A stretch of DNA of 64,000 nucleotides from Halogranum gelatinilyticum (GCF_900103715.1 NZ_FNHL01000001.1:1159295-1223294), one strand, 5' to 3'. Positions 13,703 to 64,000 are shown, counted from the stretch's first letter. Numbers and translations: made by a program. Notes: generated from the sequence alone by a model not told the origin.

Positions 13703-14004
13703 TGGTGCCCGCAGAGTGGTATCTGCTCCTCTCGGGGCTGATGTTCTGTATCGGTCTCTTCGGCATCCTGACGCGCCGCAACGCGCTGCTGTTCCTGATG
13801 TCCGTCGAGCTGATGCTGAACGCGGCGAACATCAACCTCGTCGCCTTCTCCTACCAGTGGGGGAACGTGACGGGGCAGACGTTCAGCCTGTTCACGATGG
13901 CGCTGGCGGCCGCGGAGGTCGCCGTCGGTATCGGTATCATCCTCGTGCTGTACCGCAACTTCAACGACATCGACGTGACGAAAGCAACGACCATGAGGTG
14001 GTAA
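13702..14004 (+). CDS. nuoK: NADH-quinone oxidoreductase subunit K
   Basis: A 100-residue subunit with three helices. RNALLFLMSVELMLNAANIN carries the conserved membrane glutamate of the proton channel and AAAEVAVGIGIILVLYRN the second one. This is the typical NuoK length and layout. It begins 1 nt into the nuoJ2 stop codon and is followed 3 nt later by nuoL. Confidence 0.96.
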   Translation: MVPAEWYLLLSGLMFCIGLFGILTRRNALLFLMSVELMLNAANINLVAFSYQWGNVTGQTFSLFTMALAAAEVAVGIGIILVLYRNFNDIDVTKATTMRW

Positions 14005-14007
14005 GTT

Positions 14008-16044
14008 ATGGCAGCATTCGACTACGTTCCGGCGATCGTTCTCCTGCCGTTCCTGTCGTTCCTGATCTCGGTGGGCGTCGCGCTCTCCGGTCGGGACCTG
14101 CTGCCGAAGGGCGGTGCGTTGCCCGGAATCGCAGCGACCGCAGGGGCGTTTCTCCTCTCCGTCTGGGCGGCTATCACCGTCGCAGGCGGCGAGTACTACA
14201 ACCAACATCTCTACACGTGGGCGGCCATCGAAGGCAGCTTCGAGCTGAACTTCGGCGTCCTCATCGACCCGCTCAGCTCGATGATGCTCGTCATCGTGAC
14301 GCTCGTCGCGCTGCTCGTCCACGTCTTCTCGCTCGGCTACATGAACGACGACGGCCAGACGGGCCTTCCCCGGTACTACGCCGGTCTCGGCCTGTTCTCG
14401 GCGTCCATGCTTGGGTTCGTCGTCGCCGACAACCTGCTCATGGCGTTCATGTTCTTCGAGCTGGTCGGGCTCTGCTCGTACCTGCTCATCGGCTTCTGGT
14501 TCCGCCAGTCCGGCCCGCCGAGCGCGGCGAAGAAGGCGTTCCTCGTCACCCGCTTCGGTGACTACTTCTTCCTCATCGGCGTCGTCGCCGTGTTCGCCAC
14601 GTTCGGCACCGCGCAGTTCGCCGGTGCCGAGGCGTTCCCGACGATGGCCGAAGAGGCACTCGCCGGTAACCTGACGGTGAACACGTTCGGCTTCGACGCC
14701 CAGACGTGGTTCACCATCGTCGGCCTGCTCGTCCTCGGTGGCGTCGTCGGCAAGTCCGCGCAGTTCCCGCTGCACACGTGGCTGCCGGACGCCATGGAGG
14801 GTCCGACGCCCGTCTCCGCGCTCATCCACGCCGCGACGATGGTCGCAGCCGGTGTGTACCTCGTCGCGCGGATGTACGGTTTCTACGCGCTGACCCCGAC
14901 GACGCTCGCCATCATCGCGTTCATCGGCGGCTTCACCGCCCTGTTCGCGGCGACGATGGGCGTCGTCAAGCGCGAAATCAAACAGGTGCTCGCGTACTCG
15001 ACCATCTCCCAGTACGGCTACATGATGCTCGCGCTGGGTTCGGGCGGCTACATCGCCGCGACCTTCCACCTCATGACGCACGCCTTCTTCAAGGCACTGC
15101 TGTTCCTGGGTGCGGGGTCGGTCATCATCGCGATGCACCACAACGAGAACATGTGGGACATGGGCAACCTCAAGGAGAAGATGCCCGTGACCTACGCGAC
15201 GTTCCTCGCCGGCTCGCTCGCGCTCGCCGGCATCTTCCCGTTCTCGGGCTTCTGGTCCAAGGACGAGGTGCTCTACGAGGCACTCATCCACGGTCTCGGC
15301 GGCAGCCCGCTGCTGCTCGCCGCGTGGGCGATGGGCCTGCTCGCCGTGTTCTTCACCGGGTTCTACACCTTCCGGATGGTCTTCCTGACCTTCCACGGTG
15401 ACGCCCGCAGCGACACGGCGCGTGACCCCGTCAGCGTCGGCTGGAACGTCAAGGGTCCGCTGGCCGTCCTCGGCGTCCTCGCCGTCGCGGCTGGCTTCAT
15501 CAACATGGTGCCGGTCGCGAAGCTGACGGGTGCCGAGATCGAGTTCCTACACAAGTGGCTCGAACACGGTCCCGCCGGTCTGACGAGCGAGCACTACGGC
15601 GAACTCATCCACGACTTCGCCGGCTACAGTTCCGGCTACCTCGTCGGCGGTGAACTCGGGACCGCGCTCGTCTCGGGTGGTGTCTCGCTGGGAGTCGCCC
15701 TTGCGGGCGTGCTCCTCGCCAACTCGCTGTACAACGTCCCCGAGCCGGTCGAACACACCGACAAGCTCGGCGGCATCAAGACGCTGCTCTACAACAACTA
15801 CTACCAGGACGAGTACCAGGTCTGGCTCGCGGAGGGCGTCACGATGCCCATCTCGCGCGCCGCGGACACGTTCGACCAGGGCGTCGTCGACGGCGTCGTC
15901 AACGGCGTCTCCAGCGTCTCCCTGTTCACGGGCAGTCGCCTGAAGCGCGTCCAGACGGGTGTCGTGAGTAACTACGCGACGCTCCTGACGCTCGGGCTGA
16001 CGGCACTGCTCGTCGTCTTCGGTCTGCTCGGAGGGTGGTTCTGA
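14008..16044 (+). CDS. nuoL: NADH-quinone oxidoreductase subunit L
   Basis: A 678-residue antiporter-like pumping subunit with about 16 helices. The proton-antiporter core is clear: FFELVGLCSYLLIGFWF (glutamate), KSAQFPLHTWLPDAMEGPTP (lysine and HTWLPDAMEGPT signature), VKREIKQVLAYSTISQYGYM. The long C-terminal lateral helix and final transmembrane anchor follow, from about residue 550 onward. It overlaps nuoM by 1 nt (TGATG). Confidence 0.96.
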   Translation: MAAFDYVPAIVLLPFLSFLISVGVALSGRDLLPKGGALPGIAATAGAFLLSVWAAITVAGGEYYNQHLYTWAAIEGSFELNFGVLIDPLSSMMLVIVTLVALLVHVFSLGYMNDDGQTGLPRYYAGLGLFSASMLGFVVADNLLMAFMFFELVGLCSYLLIGFWFRQSGPPSAAKKAFLVTRFGDYFFLIGVVAVFATFGTAQFAGAEAFPTMAEEALAGNLTVNTFGFDAQTWFTIVGLLVLGGVVGKSAQFPLHTWLPDAMEGPTPVSALIHAATMVAAGVYLVARMYGFYALTPTTLAIIAFIGGFTALFAATMGVVKREIKQVLAYSTISQYGYMMLALGSGGYIAATFHLMTHAFFKALLFLGAGSVIIAMHHNENMWDMGNLKEKMPVTYATFLAGSLALAGIFPFSGFWSKDEVLYEALIHGLGGSPLLLAAWAMGLLAVFFTGFYTFRMVFLTFHGDARSDTARDPVSVGWNVKGPLAVLGVLAVAAGFINMVPVAKLTGAEIEFLHKWLEHGPAGLTSEHYGELIHDFAGYSSGYLVGGELGTALVSGGVSLGVALAGVLLANSLYNVPEPVEHTDKLGGIKTLLYNNYYQDEYQVWLAEGVTMPISRAADTFDQGVVDGVVNGVSSVSLFTGSRLKRVQTGVVSNYATLLTLGLTALLVVFGLLGGWF

Positions 16045-54751: not shown

Positions 54752-56380
54752 CTAGTTCGCCAGCTCGTTGAACCGGTTGATGTCGGCGTCGACGCCCGCG
54801 ACGATGAGCACGTCGTCCGTCCGGACGACGAAGTCCGGGCCGATGTCGGTCAGCAGTTCGTCGCCGCGTTCGACCGCGATGACCGTGCAGTTGGTCCGGG
54901 CACGGACGTCGGCGTCGACGAGGCTCATACCCACGAGGCCGGGTGCTTCGGTCCGGACGATGTCGACCTGCGTGTCCGGCGAGATGACCTCCTCGTCGAG
55001 GATGTTCGAGGCGAGGATGCGCCCCGAGACCGTCGCCAGCGCGAGGACGTACTCCGAGCCGGCGCGGTAGAGTTTGGGCACGCTCTCGGTCTCGTTCGCG
55101 CGGGCGATGACCTCGACGTGTGGGGCGACCTGCTTGGCGACGAGCGAGGCGAAGATGGTCGTCGTGTCGGTGTCGAGTGCGAGAATGATGCTCCGCGCCT
55201 CGTCGATGCCGGCACGTTCCAGCGTCTCGCGCTCGGTCACGTCGCCGACGACGTCGACGCCTTCCTTGTCCTCCTTGTCGACGACGACGTGGGGTGCATT
55301 CTCCTGGGCGAGGGCCTCGGCGGCGGTCTCGCCCACTTCCCCGTCACCGGCGACGATGACCTTCCCCCGCCCGTGTCGCCGCGTCTCCGAGAGCGTCAAC
55401 GCCTTCAGCTCCTCCAGCTGTTCCTCGCGACCGGCGACGAGCAGGATGGTGTGCTCGTCGATGATGTCGTCCGGTGACGGCGGACTCTTGAACTCGCCGC
55501 GGAACCACGCGCCGATGATGTTCGTCCCGGTCATCTCGCCGACGCCGCTGTCGAGGACGCGCTTGCCTTCGAGCGGACTGCCGCGCTGGACGAGCAGTTC
55601 GGCGATTTCGAGATCTTCGCTGATCTCGATGGCGTCGTCGAGTGCCGACGAGACGGAGGTGGTCGCCTTTCCGGCCAGCCGTTCACCGAGTAGGCGACGC
55701 GGCGAGATGGTAGCGTCCGCGCCGGCGTAGCGGTGGTAGTCGGCGACGTTCGGGTCCTCGACGACGGTGATGACACGCACGTCGGGGGCGGCCTGTTTCG
55801 CGGAGAGGACGATACTCGCGTTGCGCTCGTCGGTGTCGTCGGCGACGAGGGTGTCGGCTTCTTGGACGTTGGCGGCGTCGAGGTCCTCGACGTCCTCGGC
55901 GTCGCCGTGGATGACCGAGTAGCCGTCCTCGTACAGCTCGCGGGCGTACTCGCGGTCGTCCTCGACGACGACGTAGGGTTTGTCGCGCGACCGGAGTTCG
56001 TCCACCAGCGTCTGCCCGCGCGGCGTGAACGTGCAGATGACGACGTGGTCTTCGAGGTCGACGCTACTCGGCGGGTCCCGCGCCAGTGCCGACTCGACGA
56101 GCGGGACGACGAACAGCGGCAGCGTCAGGAAGATGAGGAAGACGCCGGTCACCATCATCAGGATGACCATGATGAGCGACGCCGGATGGGTCCACGCCGA
56201 CGACTCCTCGCCGTAGCCGGTCGTCGTAAAGGACTGGACGGTGAACTCGAACGCCCGGAGGAAGCTGATCTCACGGCCCTCGAAGACGCCCTGTACCCAC
56301 TGGTAGGCGAGGGCGTAGATCACCACGACCGCGAACGAGAGCGCGATGTAGCCGATCGCGCGCCGTGTCGACCTCGACAT
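54752..56380 (-). CDS. Potassium channel with RCK (TrkA-N/TrkA-C) domains
   Basis: A 542-residue protein. One transmembrane helix (residues 9-29), then a pore loop with selectivity filter SFTTTGYGE, then the inner helix (IMVILMMVTGVFLIFLTLPL). Two RCK modules follow: the first TrkA-N begins DHVVICTFTPRGQTLVDELR, with TrkA-C around 265-305, and a second nucleotide-binding motif VIVAGDGEVGETAAEALAQE near 345, with its own TrkA-C to the end. It likely mediates K+ flux gated by NAD(H), ATP or cyclic di-AMP, important for salt-in osmoadaptation. Confidence 0.92.
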   Translation of the reverse strand: MSRSTRRAIGYIALSFAVVVIYALAYQWVQGVFEGREISFLRAFEFTVQSFTTTGYGEESSAWTHPASLIMVILMMVTGVFLIFLTLPLFVVPLVESALARDPPSSVDLEDHVVICTFTPRGQTLVDELRSRDKPYVVVEDDREYARELYEDGYSVIHGDAEDVEDLDAANVQEADTLVADDTDERNASIVLSAKQAAPDVRVITVVEDPNVADYHRYAGADATISPRRLLGERLAGKATTSVSSALDDAIEISEDLEIAELLVQRGSPLEGKRVLDSGVGEMTGTNIIGAWFRGEFKSPPSPDDIIDEHTILLVAGREEQLEELKALTLSETRRHGRGKVIVAGDGEVGETAAEALAQENAPHVVVDKEDKEGVDVVGDVTERETLERAGIDEARSIILALDTDTTTIFASLVAKQVAPHVEVIARANETESVPKLYRAGSEYVLALATVSGRILASNILDEEVISPDTQVDIVRTEAPGLVGMSLVDADVRARTNCTVIAVERGDELLTDIGPDFVVRTDDVLIVAGVDADINRFNELAN

Positions 56381-56863: not shown

Positions 56864-57733
56864 TTATGCGACCGAGCCGCCGATCTCCGCGCCGAAGTAG
56901 AGCACGACGACGAGGAAGACCCAGACGACGTCGACGAAGTGCCAGTACATCGAGGCCGTGGTGACCGCCACGTGCCGCTCCGAGGAGAACTGTCCGCGGA
57001 GCGCGCGGACGAAGACGATGCCGAGCAGGACGGCACCGAGCGTGACGTGGAGACCGTGAAGTCCCGTCAGCCCGAAGAAGGCCGACGCGAAGATGCCGTT
57101 CGTGAAGGTGAACCCTTCCTCAACGATGAACTCGTAGTACTCCAGGATCTGCCCGCCGATGAAGACCGCACCGAGCGCGAGCGTCAGGAGCATCCCGAGG
57201 ATGAAGCTGCGGCGGTTCTCACGGCGCAGGGAGAGTTCCGCCCAGTGGAGCGTGAAGCTCGATGCGACCAGCAGGGCGGTGTTGGCGAGGACGAGCGAGG
57301 TCGTCAGCCCGAACTCGGGCATCCCGACCGGCGGCCACTGGCCTGCGCGGATGTAGAAGTAGTAGCCGAACAGCGCGCCGAAGGTCCCCAGCTCGGAGCC
57401 GAGGAAGGCGATCATCCCCCACCGGAGCCCGGAACCGTGGTCCGAACTCGCACCGCGCGACCAGTATTTCGCGACGAACGCGTGGTACAGCCAGCCGTAG
57501 AGGCCGACGAGGAACAGGCCGACGCTCCCGATGCCGACGACGACGCCGGGCGTCGTGCTGAGAAGCGGGTCGTCGCCGATGGCGACGATGTACAGCGCGG
57601 CCGCGATGTAGATGCCTGCGCCACCCACTGCGGTGACGAACGGCCACCAACTGGCTTCGCCGAAGCCCCTGGGCCAGTCCTCCACTGCCGGGAGGTGGTG
57701 TCCGTGGTCGTCGTGTGAATCTTCGGTACTCAT
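56864..57733 (-). CDS. Heme-copper oxidase subunit III
   Basis: A 289-residue subunit with seven helices. After a His-rich N-terminus (SHDDHGHH), PRGFGEASWWPF and FLGSELGTFGALFGYYFYIR (with the conserved Glu in helix III), then LHGLHVTLGAVLLGIVFVR and YWHFVDVVWVFLVVVLYFG, are typical of subunit III. It belongs to a cytochrome c or quinol oxidase; subunits I and II are not in the window. ATG 57733 fits a TATA element on the minus strand (57755-57765). It is divergent from the P19-like lipoprotein gene. Confidence 0.93.
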   Translation of the reverse strand: MSTEDSHDDHGHHLPAVEDWPRGFGEASWWPFVTAVGGAGIYIAAALYIVAIGDDPLLSTTPGVVVGIGSVGLFLVGLYGWLYHAFVAKYWSRGASSDHGSGLRWGMIAFLGSELGTFGALFGYYFYIRAGQWPPVGMPEFGLTTSLVLANTALLVASSFTLHWAELSLRRENRRSFILGMLLTLALGAVFIGGQILEYYEFIVEEGFTFTNGIFASAFFGLTGLHGLHVTLGAVLLGIVFVRALRGQFSSERHVAVTTASMYWHFVDVVWVFLVVVLYFGAEIGGSVA

Positions 57734-57999: not shown

Positions 58000-59076
58000 A
58001 TGACACTCCCGAACTCGACCTCACGTCGGTCGGTCCTTGGCGCGCTGGCCGCCGGAACCGTCGGCTCGCTCGCAGGCTGTCTCGGCGGGTTCGAGACGCA
58101 GTCCGCCTGGCGCGACCCGCCGCTCGTCGCGGACCGCCCCGACGCCGTCTATCTCCCGGCGATCACCGAGGGTATGAAGCTGTACGGACGCACGACTGCG
58201 GGCCCGTACGGCGTCGTCCTCAGCTACTCCTATCCGCACCGCTTCTGGACGGTCGCCGGAACCGAACGTACGAAGACGCCCGTCGGAAGCGACGACTCGA
58301 TTCATCTGATGGTCTCGCTGTGGGACGCGGAGACGGGGACCGTCCTCCCGGTCGACGCGGGCGTAGAGATCGAGATTACGCAGGACGGTCGACTCGTCTC
58401 CCAAGAAGTCGCCTACCCGATGCTCTCCCAGCAGATGGGCTTTCACTACGGCGCGAACTACGCGTTCGACGGCGAGGGCGACTACACCGCGACGGTCCGC
58501 GTCGGCGGCGTCAGCTTGCGGCGGACCGGCTCGTTTGCGGGTCGCTTCGAGGACGTCGAGACGGTCGCGTTCGACTTCACGTTCGACACCGACGACCTCT
58601 ACGACGTCGACATCACCCGCCTCGGCGACCGCGGCGGCACCAGAGACGCGGTCGAGCCGATGGACATGGGCTTCCCGGTCGGCCGCGTCCCCGCGGTCGA
58701 CGACCTCCCCGGTCGCCTCCTCGGCTCCGGTACCACCGGCGACGCCGTCTTCCACGCGTTCGTCGTCGACGACGGGAGTCGCTTCGGCGTCGACGGCTCG
58801 TATCTCTCTATCACCGCCCGAACGCCGTACAACGGCGTCGTCGTCCCGATGATGGGGCTGCGCGCGACGGTGACCCGAGACGGTGAGACCGTTTTCGACG
58901 GGACGCTGGACCGAACGCTCGACCCGACGGTCGGCTACCACTACGGAGCCGCCGCGGCCGTTGAGCCCGGCGACACGGTCGAGTTGACCGTCGAGGTGCC
59001 GCCGCAGGTGGCCCGCCACGACGGCTACGAGACCGCCTTCTTCGAGATGCCACCGACGACGCTCACTCGTTCGTAA
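58000..59076 (+). CDS. Tat lipoprotein with P19/Tp34-like iron-transport domains (DUF7350-like)
   Basis: A 358-residue exported protein. The twin-arginine signal is SRRSVLGALAAGTVGSLAGC with lipobox Cys27. Two repeated blocks carry a His-Tyr-Gly motif: PMLSQQMGFHYGANYAFDGE (H149, in residues 140-159) and DPTVGYHYGAAAAVEPGD (H314). In P19 and Tp34, the HYG motif contributes metal ligands, and the strand order before it is similar. The likely role is binding Fe or Cu on the outer cell surface. Neighbours include a thioredoxin-like lipoprotein, a ferredoxin and two polytopic proteins. The next gene begins 3 nt after its stop. Confidence 0.8.
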   Translation: MTLPNSTSRRSVLGALAAGTVGSLAGCLGGFETQSAWRDPPLVADRPDAVYLPAITEGMKLYGRTTAGPYGVVLSYSYPHRFWTVAGTERTKTPVGSDDSIHLMVSLWDAETGTVLPVDAGVEIEITQDGRLVSQEVAYPMLSQQMGFHYGANYAFDGEGDYTATVRVGGVSLRRTGSFAGRFEDVETVAFDFTFDTDDLYDVDITRLGDRGGTRDAVEPMDMGFPVGRVPAVDDLPGRLLGSGTTGDAVFHAFVVDDGSRFGVDGSYLSITARTPYNGVVVPMMGLRATVTRDGETVFDGTLDRTLDPTVGYHYGAAAAVEPGDTVELTVEVPPQVARHDGYETAFFEMPPTTLTRS

Positions 59077-59079
59077 CCC

Positions 59080-59364
59080 ATGACTACGACACACACCACA
59101 CCGACGGCGGAGACGGCGACGGACGGGACCGACGCGCCGCACATCTGCGAGACGTGCGGAGGGGCCTATCCGACGGCGACGCTCCTGATTCACCACCGCG
59201 GGGTCCGCCATCCGAACGACCTCGACGAGGCGGAACTGGAACGGTACCGTGACGCGTACGCCGAGGAGGAGGCGACCCTCCGACGCTTCCGCATCATCGC
59301 ACTCGGAGGACTCGTCCTCCTGTACTTCAGCTTCCTCTTCATGTATGCCAGCTTCGCAGTCTAA
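59080..59364 (+). CDS. C2H2 zinc-finger protein with a C-terminal transmembrane helix (DUF7410-like)
   Basis: A 94-residue protein. ICETCGGAYPTATLLIHHRG contains C23, C26 and H38/H39, with H44 shortly after: C-x2-C-x11/12-H-x4/5-H, a C2H2-type zinc finger. A charged helix follows (LERYRDAYAEEEATLRRFR), then one transmembrane helix (IALGGLVLLYFSFLFMY). It begins 3 nt after the P19-like gene and overlaps the start of the polytopic protein gene (59345), so all three are in one operon. A finger on a membrane anchor suggests metal sensing or handling. Confidence 0.75.
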   Translation: MTTTHTTPTAETATDGTDAPHICETCGGAYPTATLLIHHRGVRHPNDLDEAELERYRDAYAEEEATLRRFRIIALGGLVLLYFSFLFMYASFAV

Positions 59365-60814
59365 GTCCCCGGACGGGACGGACGGGACCCCAACCCAGCC
59401 GCGAGAGACGTCTCTCTCGTGGCCTGCTCGGCTCACCGGCTTGACCGGCCGCCTCGCCGCCCTCGCGCTCGCGACGGTCGCGTTCGTCGGGACGGTCGCC
59501 GCGAGCAACGCCGCCGTCGGCCTCAGTGGGGCGTCCAGCCAGTCGCTTTCGGTCCCGCGGTGGCTCTACGTCGCGACCGGCGGTGCCGTCATCGGTGCCT
59601 CCGCACTGCTCGCGAGCTTCGTGACCGACCGCCGGTTTATCGCTTCGATTCACAGCTGGCGGCGCGCGCTCACCGACGGCCGGAGTCTCAGACGCGGTGC
59701 TCGCGTCGTGTTGGCACTCGCGGGCGTCGTGCTCCTGCCGCTCGCGGTCTACCGCGGTTTCACCGGGCCGCAGGTTCCGACGGTCAACTTCGCGCTCGTG
59801 CTCGTCTTCGCCGGGATGCGTGCGGGCTTCACGATGGTGACCTACCTGTTCGGCAACGCGTGGCCGCTGTTGAACCCCTGGCGGACGGTCGCCGAACGGC
59901 TCCCGAACGGCTTCGTCGCGTATCCCGACCGGCTGGGTCGGTGGCCCGCCGTCGCCGGACTGCTCGCGCTCGTCTGGGTCGAGACGACGACCGGGGTCAC
60001 GTCGGTCCCGGCGACGCTCGCGACCGCGCTCGTCGGTTACTCCGCCGTCACGGTCGTCGGTGCGGTCCTCGTCGGTCCCGACACGTGGTTCGAGCGCGTC
60101 GACCCCGTCTCGGTCTTCTTCGCCTTCTACGGCCGAGTCGCCCCCTTCACGTGGACCGAGGACGGTCTCGACCTCCGGCTGCCGGGGATGGGACTCGTCG
60201 AGGACCGCTTCGTCGATGGGCTGGACGACGTCGCGTTCGTCGTCGCGCTCGTCTGGGAGCTGACGTTCAGCGGCTTCGTGACGACGACGGCTGGTGTCTC
60301 TACCGTCGAAGCCCTCGCCGGCCTCGGTCTCCCGCCGCTTTCGGTCTATCTCGGACTCTATCTCGGCGGCTTCGCCGCCTTCGTCGGGCTGTACGTCCTC
60401 GCCGCCAAGCTGGCGGCCGACTATCTGGAGACGTATCGCACCACCCGAGAACTCGCGGTCCGGTTCGCACCGCCACTGCTCGCCATCGCCGCGGGCTACC
60501 ATCTCGCCCATTACTTCGCGTTCTTCGTCTCGCTGTCGCCGTCGCTCGTGGCCGTCCTCGGCTCGCCGTTCAGCCCGCCGCCGAACCCCCTCGTGCTTTC
60601 GCTTCCGGCATGGTTCGGCAGTCTCACCATCCTCTTCGTCCTGGCCGGACATCTGCTCGCCATCTGGGTGGCGCACTCGACGGCCTACGAGCTGTTCCCC
60701 AGCCGGGTTCAGGCGATCCGCAGCCAGTACTCGTTTGTCGTCGTGATGATGCTCTACACCGCGTTGAGTCTGTGGCTCATCTCGCTGCCGACGACGCCGC
60801 CAGCGTTCCTCTGA
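59345..60814 (+). CDS. Polytopic membrane protein, paralogue of the protein at 62020
   Basis: A 489-residue protein with about 12 helices and an N-terminal hydrophilic segment of about 25. It shares with the 62020 protein a run of blocks: LLNPWRTVAERL, WPAVAGLLALVWVE, GPDTWFERVDPVSVFFAFYG, VAFVVALVWELTFSGFV, and GYHLAHYFAFF, then LAGHLLAIWVAHSTAYELF and MLYTALSLWLISLP. Shared intramembrane histidines occur in LAHY and in GHLLAIWVAH. I know the family only as haloarchaeal hypothetical proteins. ATG 59345 overlaps the preceding gene's end by 20 nt. Confidence 0.75.
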   Translation: MPASQSKSPDGTDGTPTQPRETSLSWPARLTGLTGRLAALALATVAFVGTVAASNAAVGLSGASSQSLSVPRWLYVATGGAVIGASALLASFVTDRRFIASIHSWRRALTDGRSLRRGARVVLALAGVVLLPLAVYRGFTGPQVPTVNFALVLVFAGMRAGFTMVTYLFGNAWPLLNPWRTVAERLPNGFVAYPDRLGRWPAVAGLLALVWVETTTGVTSVPATLATALVGYSAVTVVGAVLVGPDTWFERVDPVSVFFAFYGRVAPFTWTEDGLDLRLPGMGLVEDRFVDGLDDVAFVVALVWELTFSGFVTTTAGVSTVEALAGLGLPPLSVYLGLYLGGFAAFVGLYVLAAKLAADYLETYRTTRELAVRFAPPLLAIAAGYHLAHYFAFFVSLSPSLVAVLGSPFSPPPNPLVLSLPAWFGSLTILFVLAGHLLAIWVAHSTAYELFPSRVQAIRSQYSFVVVMMLYTALSLWLISLPTTPPAFL

Positions 60815-60817
60815 CTC

Positions 60818-60841
60818 GGGGTGACGGTGAACGCCGTCCCC
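60818..60841. terminator. Hairpin between convergent genes
   Basis: GGGG (60818-60821) and CCCC (60838-60841) flank an inner ACGG/CCGT stem with a two-base bulge, in the 40-nt gap between the converging stops of the 59345 and 60854 genes. It may act as a terminator in both directions. Confidence 0.4.
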
Positions 60842-60853
60842 TCTCTGTCGAGG

Positions 60854-61192
60854 TCACTCGTCGACTTTGTGGCCCCAAAAACCCGGATACTTCTCGACGA
60901 TGACGTCGCCGTAGACACGCGTCTGACAGGCGAGTCGGAGACCGTCCTCGGGGGAATGCGGCGGGAACGACAGCCGCGCACACTCTCGAAGGGTCGGCTC
61001 GCTCACGGGCGGGCCGCCGTCGCCGCGTGCCGTGATGGCGACAGCACAGGTGCCACACGACCCCAGCCCGCGACAGTTGAGCGTCTCGGCGCGGCCGTTG
61101 TACGGCGAGTGGCCCGCAGCTCGGAGGACGTCTCGGAGGATCGCCCCTTCCGCACAGTCGATTCTCGCTCCCTCGAACGCGACAGTCGGCAT
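60854..61192 (-). CDS. [2Fe-2S] ferredoxin
   Basis: A 112-residue plant-type ferredoxin. Ligands: CRGLGSCGTC (Cys-x5-Cys-x2-Cys) and a fourth in LRLACQTRVYGDV. The extension EKYPGFWGHKVDE ends it. It is smaller and less acidic than the main halobacterial ferredoxin, and lacks its N-terminal insertion. Likely a specialised electron carrier. ATG 61192 is used; ATG 61198 two codons upstream is possible. It lies among the metal/redox genes at 58-63 kb but on the opposite strand. Confidence 0.88.
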   Translation of the reverse strand: MPTVAFEGARIDCAEGAILRDVLRAAGHSPYNGRAETLNCRGLGSCGTCAVAITARGDGGPPVSEPTLRECARLSFPPHSPEDGLRLACQTRVYGDVIVEKYPGFWGHKVDE

Positions 61193-61260
61193 GGTCACCG
61201 TTGGAACGGCAGACGCAAATCCCTACGGATGACAGTCGTTACCAGCCTCCTTTCACGGGG

Positions 61261-61270
61261 GTTAAATACT
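61261..61270 (+). promoter_or_regulatory. TATA box of the DsbA-like lipoprotein gene
   Basis: GTTAAATACT lies 22-31 nt upstream of the ATG at 61292, with leaderless spacing. Confidence 0.65.
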
Positions 61271-61291
61271 GCCAAAACCCACAGATAACCT

Positions 61292-61936
61292 ATGGACACC
61301 TCTCGCCGCTCCCTCCTCGCAACGATCGGTGGCACCACCGCAGTCGGTCTCGCGGGCTGTCTCGGCGGTGCCAGCGGCAGCGACGCCGGAGACTGCGACA
61401 TCCCCGACAGCACCGACACGGTTCAGGAGCTGCCTATCCCGACGCTCGGGCCGGACGACGCGCCGGTCACGGTCAAAGTCTGGGAGGACTTCTCCTGCCC
61501 GCACTGTGCGACCTTCGCCCAGGATGTCTTCCCGCAGATCCGCTCGAACTTCGTCGACTCCGGCGACGTCCAGTACCACCACCACGACTGGCCGCTGCCG
61601 GTCAACCAACAGTGGTCGTGGGCGATCCCCAACGCGGCCCGCGGGGTGCAGGATTCGATGGACGACGAGACGTTCTTCGAGTTCGCGAAGCTGATGTTCG
61701 AGAACCAGGGCGACTACTCGTTCGACCTCGTCCAAGAGCAGGCCGAAGCGGTCGGTGCCGACGGCTGTGGAATCCGCGGCGACGCCATCAACGAGCCGTA
61801 CCGCCCCGTGCTCGAAGCCGACGCCCAGCGCGCACAGGACCGCGGTGCTGGCGGGACGCCGGCCGTCTACGTCAACGGCACCTCCGTCACCCCGACGTGG
61901 GAGGAGGTCCGCGCCGCCATCGAGTCAGAACTCTGA
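61292..61936 (+). CDS. DsbA family thioredoxin-fold lipoprotein
   Basis: A 214-residue exported protein. Tat signal SRRSLLATIGGTTAVGLAGC with lipobox Cys23; a second Cys35 lies in the linker. The thioredoxin fold starts at about 55: VKVWEDFSCPHCATF with active site C69-P-H-C72, the same CPHC as E. coli DsbA. The cis-Pro region is GAGGTPAVYVNGT. It should oxidise or reduce thiols or metal ligands on the outer face of the membrane. The gene starts its own transcription unit upstream of the polytopic protein at 62020. Confidence 0.9.
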   Translation: MDTSRRSLLATIGGTTAVGLAGCLGGASGSDAGDCDIPDSTDTVQELPIPTLGPDDAPVTVKVWEDFSCPHCATFAQDVFPQIRSNFVDSGDVQYHHHDWPLPVNQQWSWAIPNAARGVQDSMDDETFFEFAKLMFENQGDYSFDLVQEQAEAVGADGCGIRGDAINEPYRPVLEADAQRAQDRGAGGTPAVYVNGTSVTPTWEEVRAAIESEL

Positions 61937-62019
61937 ACGTCACCTCCTGACACGGCCGTTCCGCGTCGAACCGGACGACGAATCGACTACGTTTTCCACC
62001 GCTACCGAGAAGCTTCGGT

Positions 62020-63336
62020 ATGCGACGGCTCTCCCGCCTGCTCGCGGTTCTCGCTGGCGTACTCTTCCTCGCAGCACCCGTCTCAGCACACAGCGTCGGC
62101 TCACGGTTCGACGCGCCGCTTCCTCTCTCACTTCTGTTCGCCGGTGCGGGTGCGACGGTCGCGCTCACCGCGCTGCTCCTCGCGCAGATGGACGGGACGC
62201 CGATGAGACAGCGGCGACTCGTCTCGCTGCCGACGGCGACGCGGGGTGGCCGACTCGCCGGGCGACTGCTCTTTCTCGCAGCCTTCGGACTCGCGCTCGT
62301 CGAGGGTGTTACGGGTCCGAGCGCGCCACTGAGTAACTTCACGACGCTGTTCGTCTGGCCTTTACTGCTGAAGGGTGTCGCGCTCCTCGCGATTCTGGGC
62401 GGTAGCCCGTGGCGGACGCTCTCGCCGTGGCGGACGCTCTACGACGGCCTGGCTCGGCTCGAAGGGAGCGAGATTCAGCTTCGGCCGTATCCGAACCTCG
62501 GTGACTGGCCAGCGTTCGTCGGCTTCCTCCTCGTCGTCGGCGTTGCCGAGAACCTGACGCAGCTGCCACAACGGCCTGCACTGACGGCGGGACTGCTCGC
62601 GGTCTACGCGACGGTGATGCTCGTCGGCGGTCTCGTCTTCGGCCCACAGTGGTTCGAGCGCGCCGACGCGCTGGCCGTGTTCTACCGACTGCTCGGCCGC
62701 GCCGCGCCCTTCCAGTTCGAGGGGGGCGACCTCGTCGCGCGCGTGCCGTGGCAGGGCTGTCTCGACCGACTGTCGGCCAGCAGCGTCGCGTTCGTCGTCG
62801 CCGCGGTCTACACGGTGAGCTTCGACGGCTTCGTCGAGTCGCCGGAGTACCAGACAATCTACTTCGGCGTCCGCGACGCGCTCGGTCTCGGACCGACCGT
62901 GAGCGTCGTGCTCTATCTGCTCGGTCTCGCTGGGTTCCTCCTCGTCTTCCTCAGCGTCACCCGACTCGTTGGTGAGATCGGAGACGTCGCCGAACCGGCA
63001 CGGGCGTTTGCCGCCTCGGTCGTCCCCATCGCGGCAGCCTACGAACTCGCACACAGCCTCGGCTACGTCCTGACCTATCTCGGCCTCCTGCCGCGGATGG
63101 TCCGCGTCGAGGCCGTCGACCTCCTGGCGTGGCTGCCGCTGTCGGCCTACTGGGGGCTGCAGGTCGTCCTGATCGTCGTCGGCCACGTCGTCGCCGTCGT
63201 CGCGGCGCACGCCGTCGCCGAGCGGCTCGTCGACGGCCGTCGTCGGGCACTGCTCGCGCACGCACCACTCGTGGTGCTCATGGTCGGCTACACGGTCCTC
63301 TCGCTGTGGATCATCTCCCGGCCGGTGGCGTCGTGA
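62020..63336 (+). CDS. Polytopic membrane protein, paralogue of the protein at 59345
   Basis: A 438-residue protein with about 12 helices. It begins with a cleavable-looking signal (LLAVLAGVLFLAAPVSAHS), unlike its paralogue. Blocks shared with it: TLSPWRTLYDGL, WPAFVGFLLVVGVAE, GPQWFERADALAVFYRLLGR, VAFVVAAVYTVSFDGFV, AYELAHSLGYVL, VVGHVVAVVAAHAVAERL and MVGYTVLSLWIISRP. The LAH and GH...AH histidines match. It lies 83 nt after the DsbA-like lipoprotein gene, so likely in its operon. Function unknown; a redox or metal-transfer membrane component is inference from neighbours. Confidence 0.75.
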   Translation: MRRLSRLLAVLAGVLFLAAPVSAHSVGSRFDAPLPLSLLFAGAGATVALTALLLAQMDGTPMRQRRLVSLPTATRGGRLAGRLLFLAAFGLALVEGVTGPSAPLSNFTTLFVWPLLLKGVALLAILGGSPWRTLSPWRTLYDGLARLEGSEIQLRPYPNLGDWPAFVGFLLVVGVAENLTQLPQRPALTAGLLAVYATVMLVGGLVFGPQWFERADALAVFYRLLGRAAPFQFEGGDLVARVPWQGCLDRLSASSVAFVVAAVYTVSFDGFVESPEYQTIYFGVRDALGLGPTVSVVLYLLGLAGFLLVFLSVTRLVGEIGDVAEPARAFAASVVPIAAAYELAHSLGYVLTYLGLLPRMVRVEAVDLLAWLPLSAYWGLQVVLIVVGHVVAVVAAHAVAERLVDGRRRALLAHAPLVVLMVGYTVLSLWIISRPVAS

Positions 63337-63382: not shown

Positions 63383-64000
63383 ATGCGACTCGTGACCGTC
63401 GCGGTCGGCGTCCTCCTCCTCGGCAGCCTCCTCGGCGTCGCCTACCTAGGTGTCGGCGACGGAGGAGCGGAGCTGTCCGAGGAGTGGGTGAGCGACACCG
63501 AGCGGAACGTCCGCGCGAACCACCACTCGGTCGCCGTCGCCGACGGCCGCGTCTACGCGCCGGTGAGTGCCGAGTCCCGGAGTACGGGCTGCGCGCTCGT
63601 CGCGCTCGACGCCAGCGACGGCTCGACCGACTGGAGCTACGGCGTCGCGGCGGCGAACTGCACCATCCACGCCGTCGCCGACCCGACGGTCGCCGATTAC
63701 GATGCCGACGAAACCAACGAGGTCCTCGCGGCGACGACGGAGAACGAACTCGCCGCGTTCGTCCCCGAGACGGGAGAGAAGGAGTTCGCGAAGGAACTCA
63801 CGAAGTACGGCTACACCAAGCCGCTCGTCGCCGACCTCGCGCCAGCCGAGGGACGCGAGCTGATCGTCGCCGACTCCGGCGGCGTCGTTTTCGTCGTCGA
63901 CAGTGCCGGTGAGACCGTCTGGAGCCACGACCTCGACGCCTTCGTCTGGGCACAGCCGGCGGTCGCCGACTTCGACGCCGACGGCGACCCCGAGTTGGTC
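63383..64000 (+). CDS. Exported beta-propeller protein (PQQ/FG-GAP-like), N-terminal part
   Basis: The first 206 residues are in the window and the frame is still open at its right edge. A signal or anchor (VTVAVGVLLLGSLLGVAYLG) is followed by repeats of about 45 residues, such as GCALVALDASDGSTDWSYGV and SGGVVFVVDSAGETVWSHDL, with Asp-rich metal loops between blades (DYDADETNEVL, DFDADGDPELV). These are FG-GAP/PQQ-type blades. It likely lies on the outer face. It starts 46 nt after the 62020 gene and may belong to that operon. Confidence 0.8.
   Translation, partial: MRLVTVAVGVLLLGSLLGVAYLGVGDGGAELSEEWVSDTERNVRANHHSVAVADGRVYAPVSAESRSTGCALVALDASDGSTDWSYGVAAANCTIHAVADPTVADYDADETNEVLAATTENELAAFVPETGEKEFAKELTKYGYTKPLVADLAPAEGRELIVADSGGVVFVVDSAGETVWSHDLDAFVWAQPAVADFDADGDPELV

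Follow-up and report, generated by a model that had tools for sequence, protein, structure and literature searches.

Gene content of the locus

Positions 58000-63336 of a 64,000-nucleotide stretch of the Halogranum gelatinilyticum genome (NZ_FNHL01000001.1:1159295-1223294, hereafter the window) carry six genes, A to F, which an initial annotation had read as a single system for metal uptake or metal redox chemistry. All six were confirmed at their positions in the window, and their neighbourhoods in other haloarchaea divide them into the ends of two adjacent modules: module 1, A-B-C (58000-60814), and module 2, D-E-F-G (60854 onward), which continues with a DyP-like gene, a regulator gene and a second P19-like gene (A2). 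We favour a reading of module 1 as a P19-type metal supply unit whose membrane part is new and which most likely provides copper for a respiratory heme-copper oxidase, and put the probability of this reading at roughly 45%.

The first gene of module 1, A1 (58000..59076, plus strand), encodes a twin-arginine translocation (Tat) lipoprotein with tandem P19-like domains (DUF7350 / Iron_transport), a putative extracytoplasmic metal binder. It is followed by B (59080..59364, plus strand), the small partner of C, with a C2H2/CxxC finger (CxxC/HxxxxH) and a single C-terminal transmembrane (TM) helix, and by C itself (59345..60814, plus strand), an unnamed polytopic membrane protein. As the gap between A and B is 3 bases and B and C overlap by 20 bases, we read A-B-C as a single operon. 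At the edge of module 2 lies D (60854..61192, minus strand), a plant-type [2Fe-2S] ferredoxin (Pfam Fer2, 22.2 bits, cut-off 21), which is divergent from a second same-direction run, E-F-G. This run consists of E (61292..61936, plus strand), a DsbA-like Tat lipoprotein with a CPHC motif (Pfam Thioredoxin_4, 97.5 bits), F (62020..63336, plus strand), a second polytopic protein, and G (63383..64000, plus strand), a PQQ/BamB-like beta-propeller (Pfam PQQ_2, 40 bits) that continues past the window end. C and F are paralogues (35% identity, E = 1.7e-41). Divergent from module 1 on its other side is H (56864..57733, minus strand), a stand-alone COX3 gene (cytochrome c oxidase subunit III; Pfam 130.5 bits), which is the neighbouring oxidase subunit of the initial annotation.

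Protein A is a tandem of P19-like domains

A1 matches Pfam DUF7350 over two stretches (190 bits) and the P19 family Iron_transport (PF10634) at 25.7 bits with a cut-off of 21; its homologues score 24-40 bits with the latter profile. The two HYG motifs from which the P19 likeness had been proposed lie at residues 149-151 and 314-316 of this Tat lipoprotein, and the N- and C-terminal halves are homologous (hhalign P = 94.9), which makes A a tandem of P19-like domains. When an AlphaFold model of A1 (predicted TM-score (pTM) 0.72, built from five sequences) was compared with the PDB using Foldseek, ranks 1-24 were all P19, FetP, FtrA or HftA structures (E from 8.7e-5; TM-scores by target reach 0.68 for P19-type structures). 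A profile made from 11 A homologues also matches Brucella FtrA in the PDB by sequence (E = 3.1e-5). The suggestion that this protein is related to P19 thus holds, and A is modelled as a tandem variant of an already known fold.

A shares with P19, FetP, FtrA and HftA a beta-sandwich fold and a PM...GxHYGxN motif that includes the copper-ligand Met and His. It departs from them in being a Tat lipoprotein with two domains in tandem and in carrying a one-residue insertion in the motif. Aligned to FtrA, M141 and H149 of A occupy the positions of the P19 copper ligands, which we take to be Met88 and His95. Both residues are invariant in 35/35 A sequences, together with H80, H102, M59, M104 and M146. 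The last of these aligns with the P19 iron-site residue Asp92 (PMC9174327), so that A, unlike P19, has a Met at this position and does not retain the full acidic iron site (Glu44, Asp46, Asp92), the alignment of the strand holding the Glu44 and Asp46 equivalents being ambiguous. The ligand His of the RHTDxET(G) motif (His132) is Phe in domain 1 of A and is retained only in domain 2, as R339-H340.

The six genes belong to two modules

To compare neighbourhoods, gene families were mapped onto fetched loci; the C loci form two samples drawn from search hits and not at random, the first of 58 haloarchaeal loci hand-picked for diversity and the second of 26 loci mostly outside the family of the window's organism. 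The A-B-C neighbourhood is kept across genera and families, with clustering far beyond chance, and B lies on the strand of C within 3 kb in 56/58 loci of the first sample. Oxidase genes without A accompany C at 34 of these 58 loci, A is present at 18 and neither at 6, with the window and H. rubrum, where both A and COX3 occur, counted among the 18. The second sample gives 16 loci with oxidase genes, 7 with A and 3 with neither. F keeps different company: 12 of 18 F loci have a P19-like gene, 3 more have a DyP-like or propeller gene and 3 have none of these. Since C and F differ in this way, two adjacent modules meet here, and the six genes are where they end. The expectation of a conserved neighbourhood holds for A-B-C, and the single six-gene system is rejected, as D, E, F and G are part of another module, which extends past the window.

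In the H. gelatinilyticum genome this continuation (L114, 2052-5497; G000:C1:1224051-1227496) comprises a DUF7405 gene (DyP-like, Tat), a helix-turn-helix regulator and a second tandem DUF7350 gene, A2; H. rubrum (L003) has the same DyP-like, regulator and second DUF7350 genes. DUF7405 matches Dyp_perox_C at 20.6 bits (cut-off 20) and adjoins A or F at many loci, outside the window. D is found with F, M (the DyP-like peroxidase), O, X and A at L180-L182 and adjoins E and M at L085, and E occurs together with D only there and in Halogranum. Beta-propeller genes of the G type (PQQ/FG-GAP) repeatedly flank F (L102, L103, L135, L173, L174, L175, L183). Module 2 recalls EfeUOB in that a metal-binding protein and a polytopic protein accompany a DyP-like protein exported through Tat, and differs from it in lacking an FTR1-type EfeU, in having the P19-like A in place of EfeO and, by our own reading, in a distal DyP-like motif MGFxSG that is not GxxDG; the module 2 genes concerned lie mostly outside the window.

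Nearly identical copies of an island with a regulator, DUF7471, a DyP-like gene, two P19-like genes, C, B and a P1B ATPase were also observed on Salarchaeum, Halobaculum and Haloarcula megaplasmids (L100, L076, L107, L127), that is, in different haloarchaeal families. This A-B-C island appears to have been laterally transferred.

An unnamed polytopic family stands where a permease would be expected

C has about 10-12 predicted TM segments and no match in Pfam or NCBIfam, including no Pfam match to FTR1, CopD, Caa3_CtaG or any MFS family. Its fold model found no match in the PDB, a null result that may reflect the quality of the model (pTM 0.69, from seven sequences). C, F and the bacterial homologues form one family (hhalign P = 100) in which E213, H389, H436 and H444 are invariant in 66/66 sequences, those from bacteria included. 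Neither this C/F family nor the C-B pairing has a model in the libraries searched (Pfam, NCBIfam). A relationship to oxidase subunits was rejected, as hhalign gave probabilities under 1% with COX1, COX2 and COX3; no similarity to CopD was seen by hhalign, a weak test given that the CopD set was small and most of its frames were misread. Literature on 'fenitrothion hydrolase', a name given to C-like proteins, yielded nothing useful, and the literature searched contained no mention of DUF7350, DUF7405 or DUF7471.

In a quick tree with long bacterial branches, copies of C with like neighbours cluster. An A-linked clade (16/18 rows; support of 98 in the Shimodaira-Hasegawa-like approximate likelihood ratio test, SH-aLRT) includes the C of the window, the oxidase-linked C proteins form a set without A, and F is a separate clade closer to the bacterial rows. 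Several relatives have C at the equivalent chromosomal site beside COX3 without A.

The arrangement recalls FetMP-FetABCDEF, FtrABCD and P19-cFtr1, where an extracytoplasmic P19-like protein is likewise combined with a polytopic protein and thiol-redox proteins are nearby. Unlike in these systems, the membrane partner comes from an unrelated unnamed family, in agreement with the initial annotation, and the FTR1 permease (PF03239) was found in 0/39 haloarchaeal genomes, the H. gelatinilyticum genome included, vs DUF7350 in 254/292. This combination, the P19 homology and the EfeUOB-like DyP gene keep P19/Efe-type iron uptake in contention as the main rival to copper supply, especially for module 2. 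A would in that case bind ferrous or ferric iron outside the cell, redox steps would fall to the DyP-like peroxidase, the ferredoxin and the DsbA-like protein, and C or F would be the permease replacing FTR1. The match to Iron_transport, the NCBI name 'iron transporter' carried by A and the DUF7405 genes adjoining A and F all agree with such a role, and the characterised P19 systems are iron importers (PMC6083913). It is opposed by the Met at the position of iron-site Asp92 and by the fact that C is linked to copper enzymes in both domains of life. In addition, neither a DUF7350 protein nor P19 is named as a strong responder in the text of a low-iron proteome study of Haloferax volcanii, which is weak evidence as many responders are unnamed (PMC11349517). 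On balance we regard iron uptake as somewhat unlikely.

C is linked to oxidase genes in haloarchaea

Oxidase genes, either COX3 or coxB-coxAC, lie beside C at 36/58 loci of the first sample and 16/26 of the second, against a chance expectation of about 1% per gene. COX3 itself adjoins C at 17/58 loci of the first sample, plus the window and H. rubrum. Across 89 genomes from the family of the window's organism, 68/74 with C have stand-alone COX3 (threshold over 98 bits) vs 1/15 without C (Fisher p = 7e-11, a value that overstates independence because those without C are drawn from about five genera). Within the coxB-coxAC cluster, U, a membrane protein of 146 amino acids without a Pfam match, is regularly found upstream of C (L091-L095, L115-L124). 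Around COX3 the gene order J-I-H is retained in several genera, and by our own sequence reading a TrkA-type potassium channel gene lies two genes from COX3 (window 54752-56380).

The same linkage would be expected if C-B were an oxidase assembly or accessory factor (for heme or subunit insertion, or electron transfer) that moves no metal, and A were a distinct metal protein that had come into the locus. COX3 or coxAC adjoins C in both domains of life, the presence of C tracks stand-alone COX3, and there are oxidase-linked C clades without A, all of which fit an assembly role. What makes it improbable in our view is that the A-linked clade of C and the linkage of F to A (12/18) recur independently, that the bacterial partners of C homologues are cupredoxin-like, and that copper-monooxygenase clusters in which no oxidase gene is seen also contain C homologues.

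Several bacterial homologues of C keep company with copper proteins

Bacterial contexts were taken from plasmids only. In actinobacteria and Variovorax the product of the gene immediately upstream of the C homologue is small and secreted and shows a cupredoxin-like HxH...ELH pattern, its Pfam scores being below cut-off, and on mycobacterial plasmids the C homologue directly follows a cupredoxin-like lipoprotein. The C homologue of Mycobacterium gallinarum is surrounded by COX3, CopC, CtaG, TlpA and a metal-sensing regulator, those of M. chubuense and M. dioxanotrophicus lie within copper membrane monooxygenase clusters, and that of Sulfitobacter is divergent from the copper chaperone PCuAC. 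A protein with a thioredoxin domain (L112 and L113, about 13960-14619) also scores against the E profile and lies about 4 kb from the C homologue on mycobacterial plasmids; CbtA is present at both loci, and CopC in addition at L113.

CopC and the metal-sensing regulator on mycobacterial plasmids, like the genes for a P1B ATPase, CDF and HiPIP close to A-B-C on Haloferax and Haloarcula megaplasmids, could also point to a plasmid heavy-metal resistance module that exports or sequesters copper, zinc or cadmium. We hold this to be very improbable: the commonest haloarchaeal context of C consists of oxidase genes with no resistance gene, and no ATPase lies within 10 kb of the A-B-C of the window (L114).

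Proposed copper supply to respiratory enzymes

The initial annotation had listed iron first and copper as the alternative. In archaea as in bacteria, the genes found around the polytopic family favour the copper part of this proposal and not its order: an unnamed polytopic family that stands beside copper respiratory enzymes from haloarchaea to mycobacteria is probably part of a route by which respiration receives copper or, with lower likelihood, iron. In the copper supply model, A1 would bind copper outside the cell, where M141, H149 and further invariant Met and His residues would form the site, and would pass the metal to C. C, aided by B, may then move or insert it by way of an intramembrane site formed by E213, H389, H436 and H444. 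In most haloarchaea C-B would act beside oxidase genes without A, and in bacteria a small cupredoxin-like lipoprotein may substitute for A. Module 2 (D-E-F-G with M-X-A2) would be a parallel unit containing F, the paralogue of C, together with redox proteins and a DyP-like peroxidase; the metal of this unit is less clear. C resembles the known factors of oxidase copper supply (CcoA, YcnJ/CopD, CtaG/Cox11, Sco, PCuAC) in its linkage to COX3, coxB-coxAC, CtaG, CopC and PCuAC; it differs from YcnJ/CopD in having no detected sequence similarity to CopD (in a small set), and it has no Caa3_CtaG or MFS match in Pfam.

Several points weigh against copper supply. The P19 relatives of known function import iron, and do so through FTR1 (PMC6083913), and the DyP-like gene adjoining many copies of A and F recalls the iron-importing EfeUOB. 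The P1B ATPase near the plasmid A-B-C has, by our own reading, a ZntA-like C-terminal motif, for which reason it is not counted toward copper. Neither an oxidase gene nor A is near C at 6/58 and 3/26 loci, several alphaproteobacterial homologues (from rhizobia and from Rhodobacterales other than Sulfitobacter) adjoin nicotinate or ABC-transporter genes and not copper genes, and the adjacency to COX3 could reflect an assembly or structural role and not metal transport.

The source of copper for CuB of aa3 oxidases has been called unknown (PMC5829832). In the available portion of a copper survey of Haloferax mediterranei a CopD protein is the sole named likely specific importer, and the C/F family is without mention in that portion (PMC9240420). 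More tentatively than for module 1 itself, we suggest that C/F, in archaea and bacteria alike, may be a copper transporter or inserter of a class not yet described, serving aa3-type oxidases and copper membrane monooxygenases, with swappable outer donors (a tandem P19-like lipoprotein or a small cupredoxin) and an obligate C2H2-finger partner in haloarchaea. By tracking stand-alone COX3 in haloarchaea and by its bacterial company of COX3, CopC, CtaG, PCuAC and copper monooxygenase, the family becomes a concrete, testable candidate for copper supply, and it suggests a possible membrane partner for the widespread haloarchaeal P19-like 'iron transporters' that lack FTR1.

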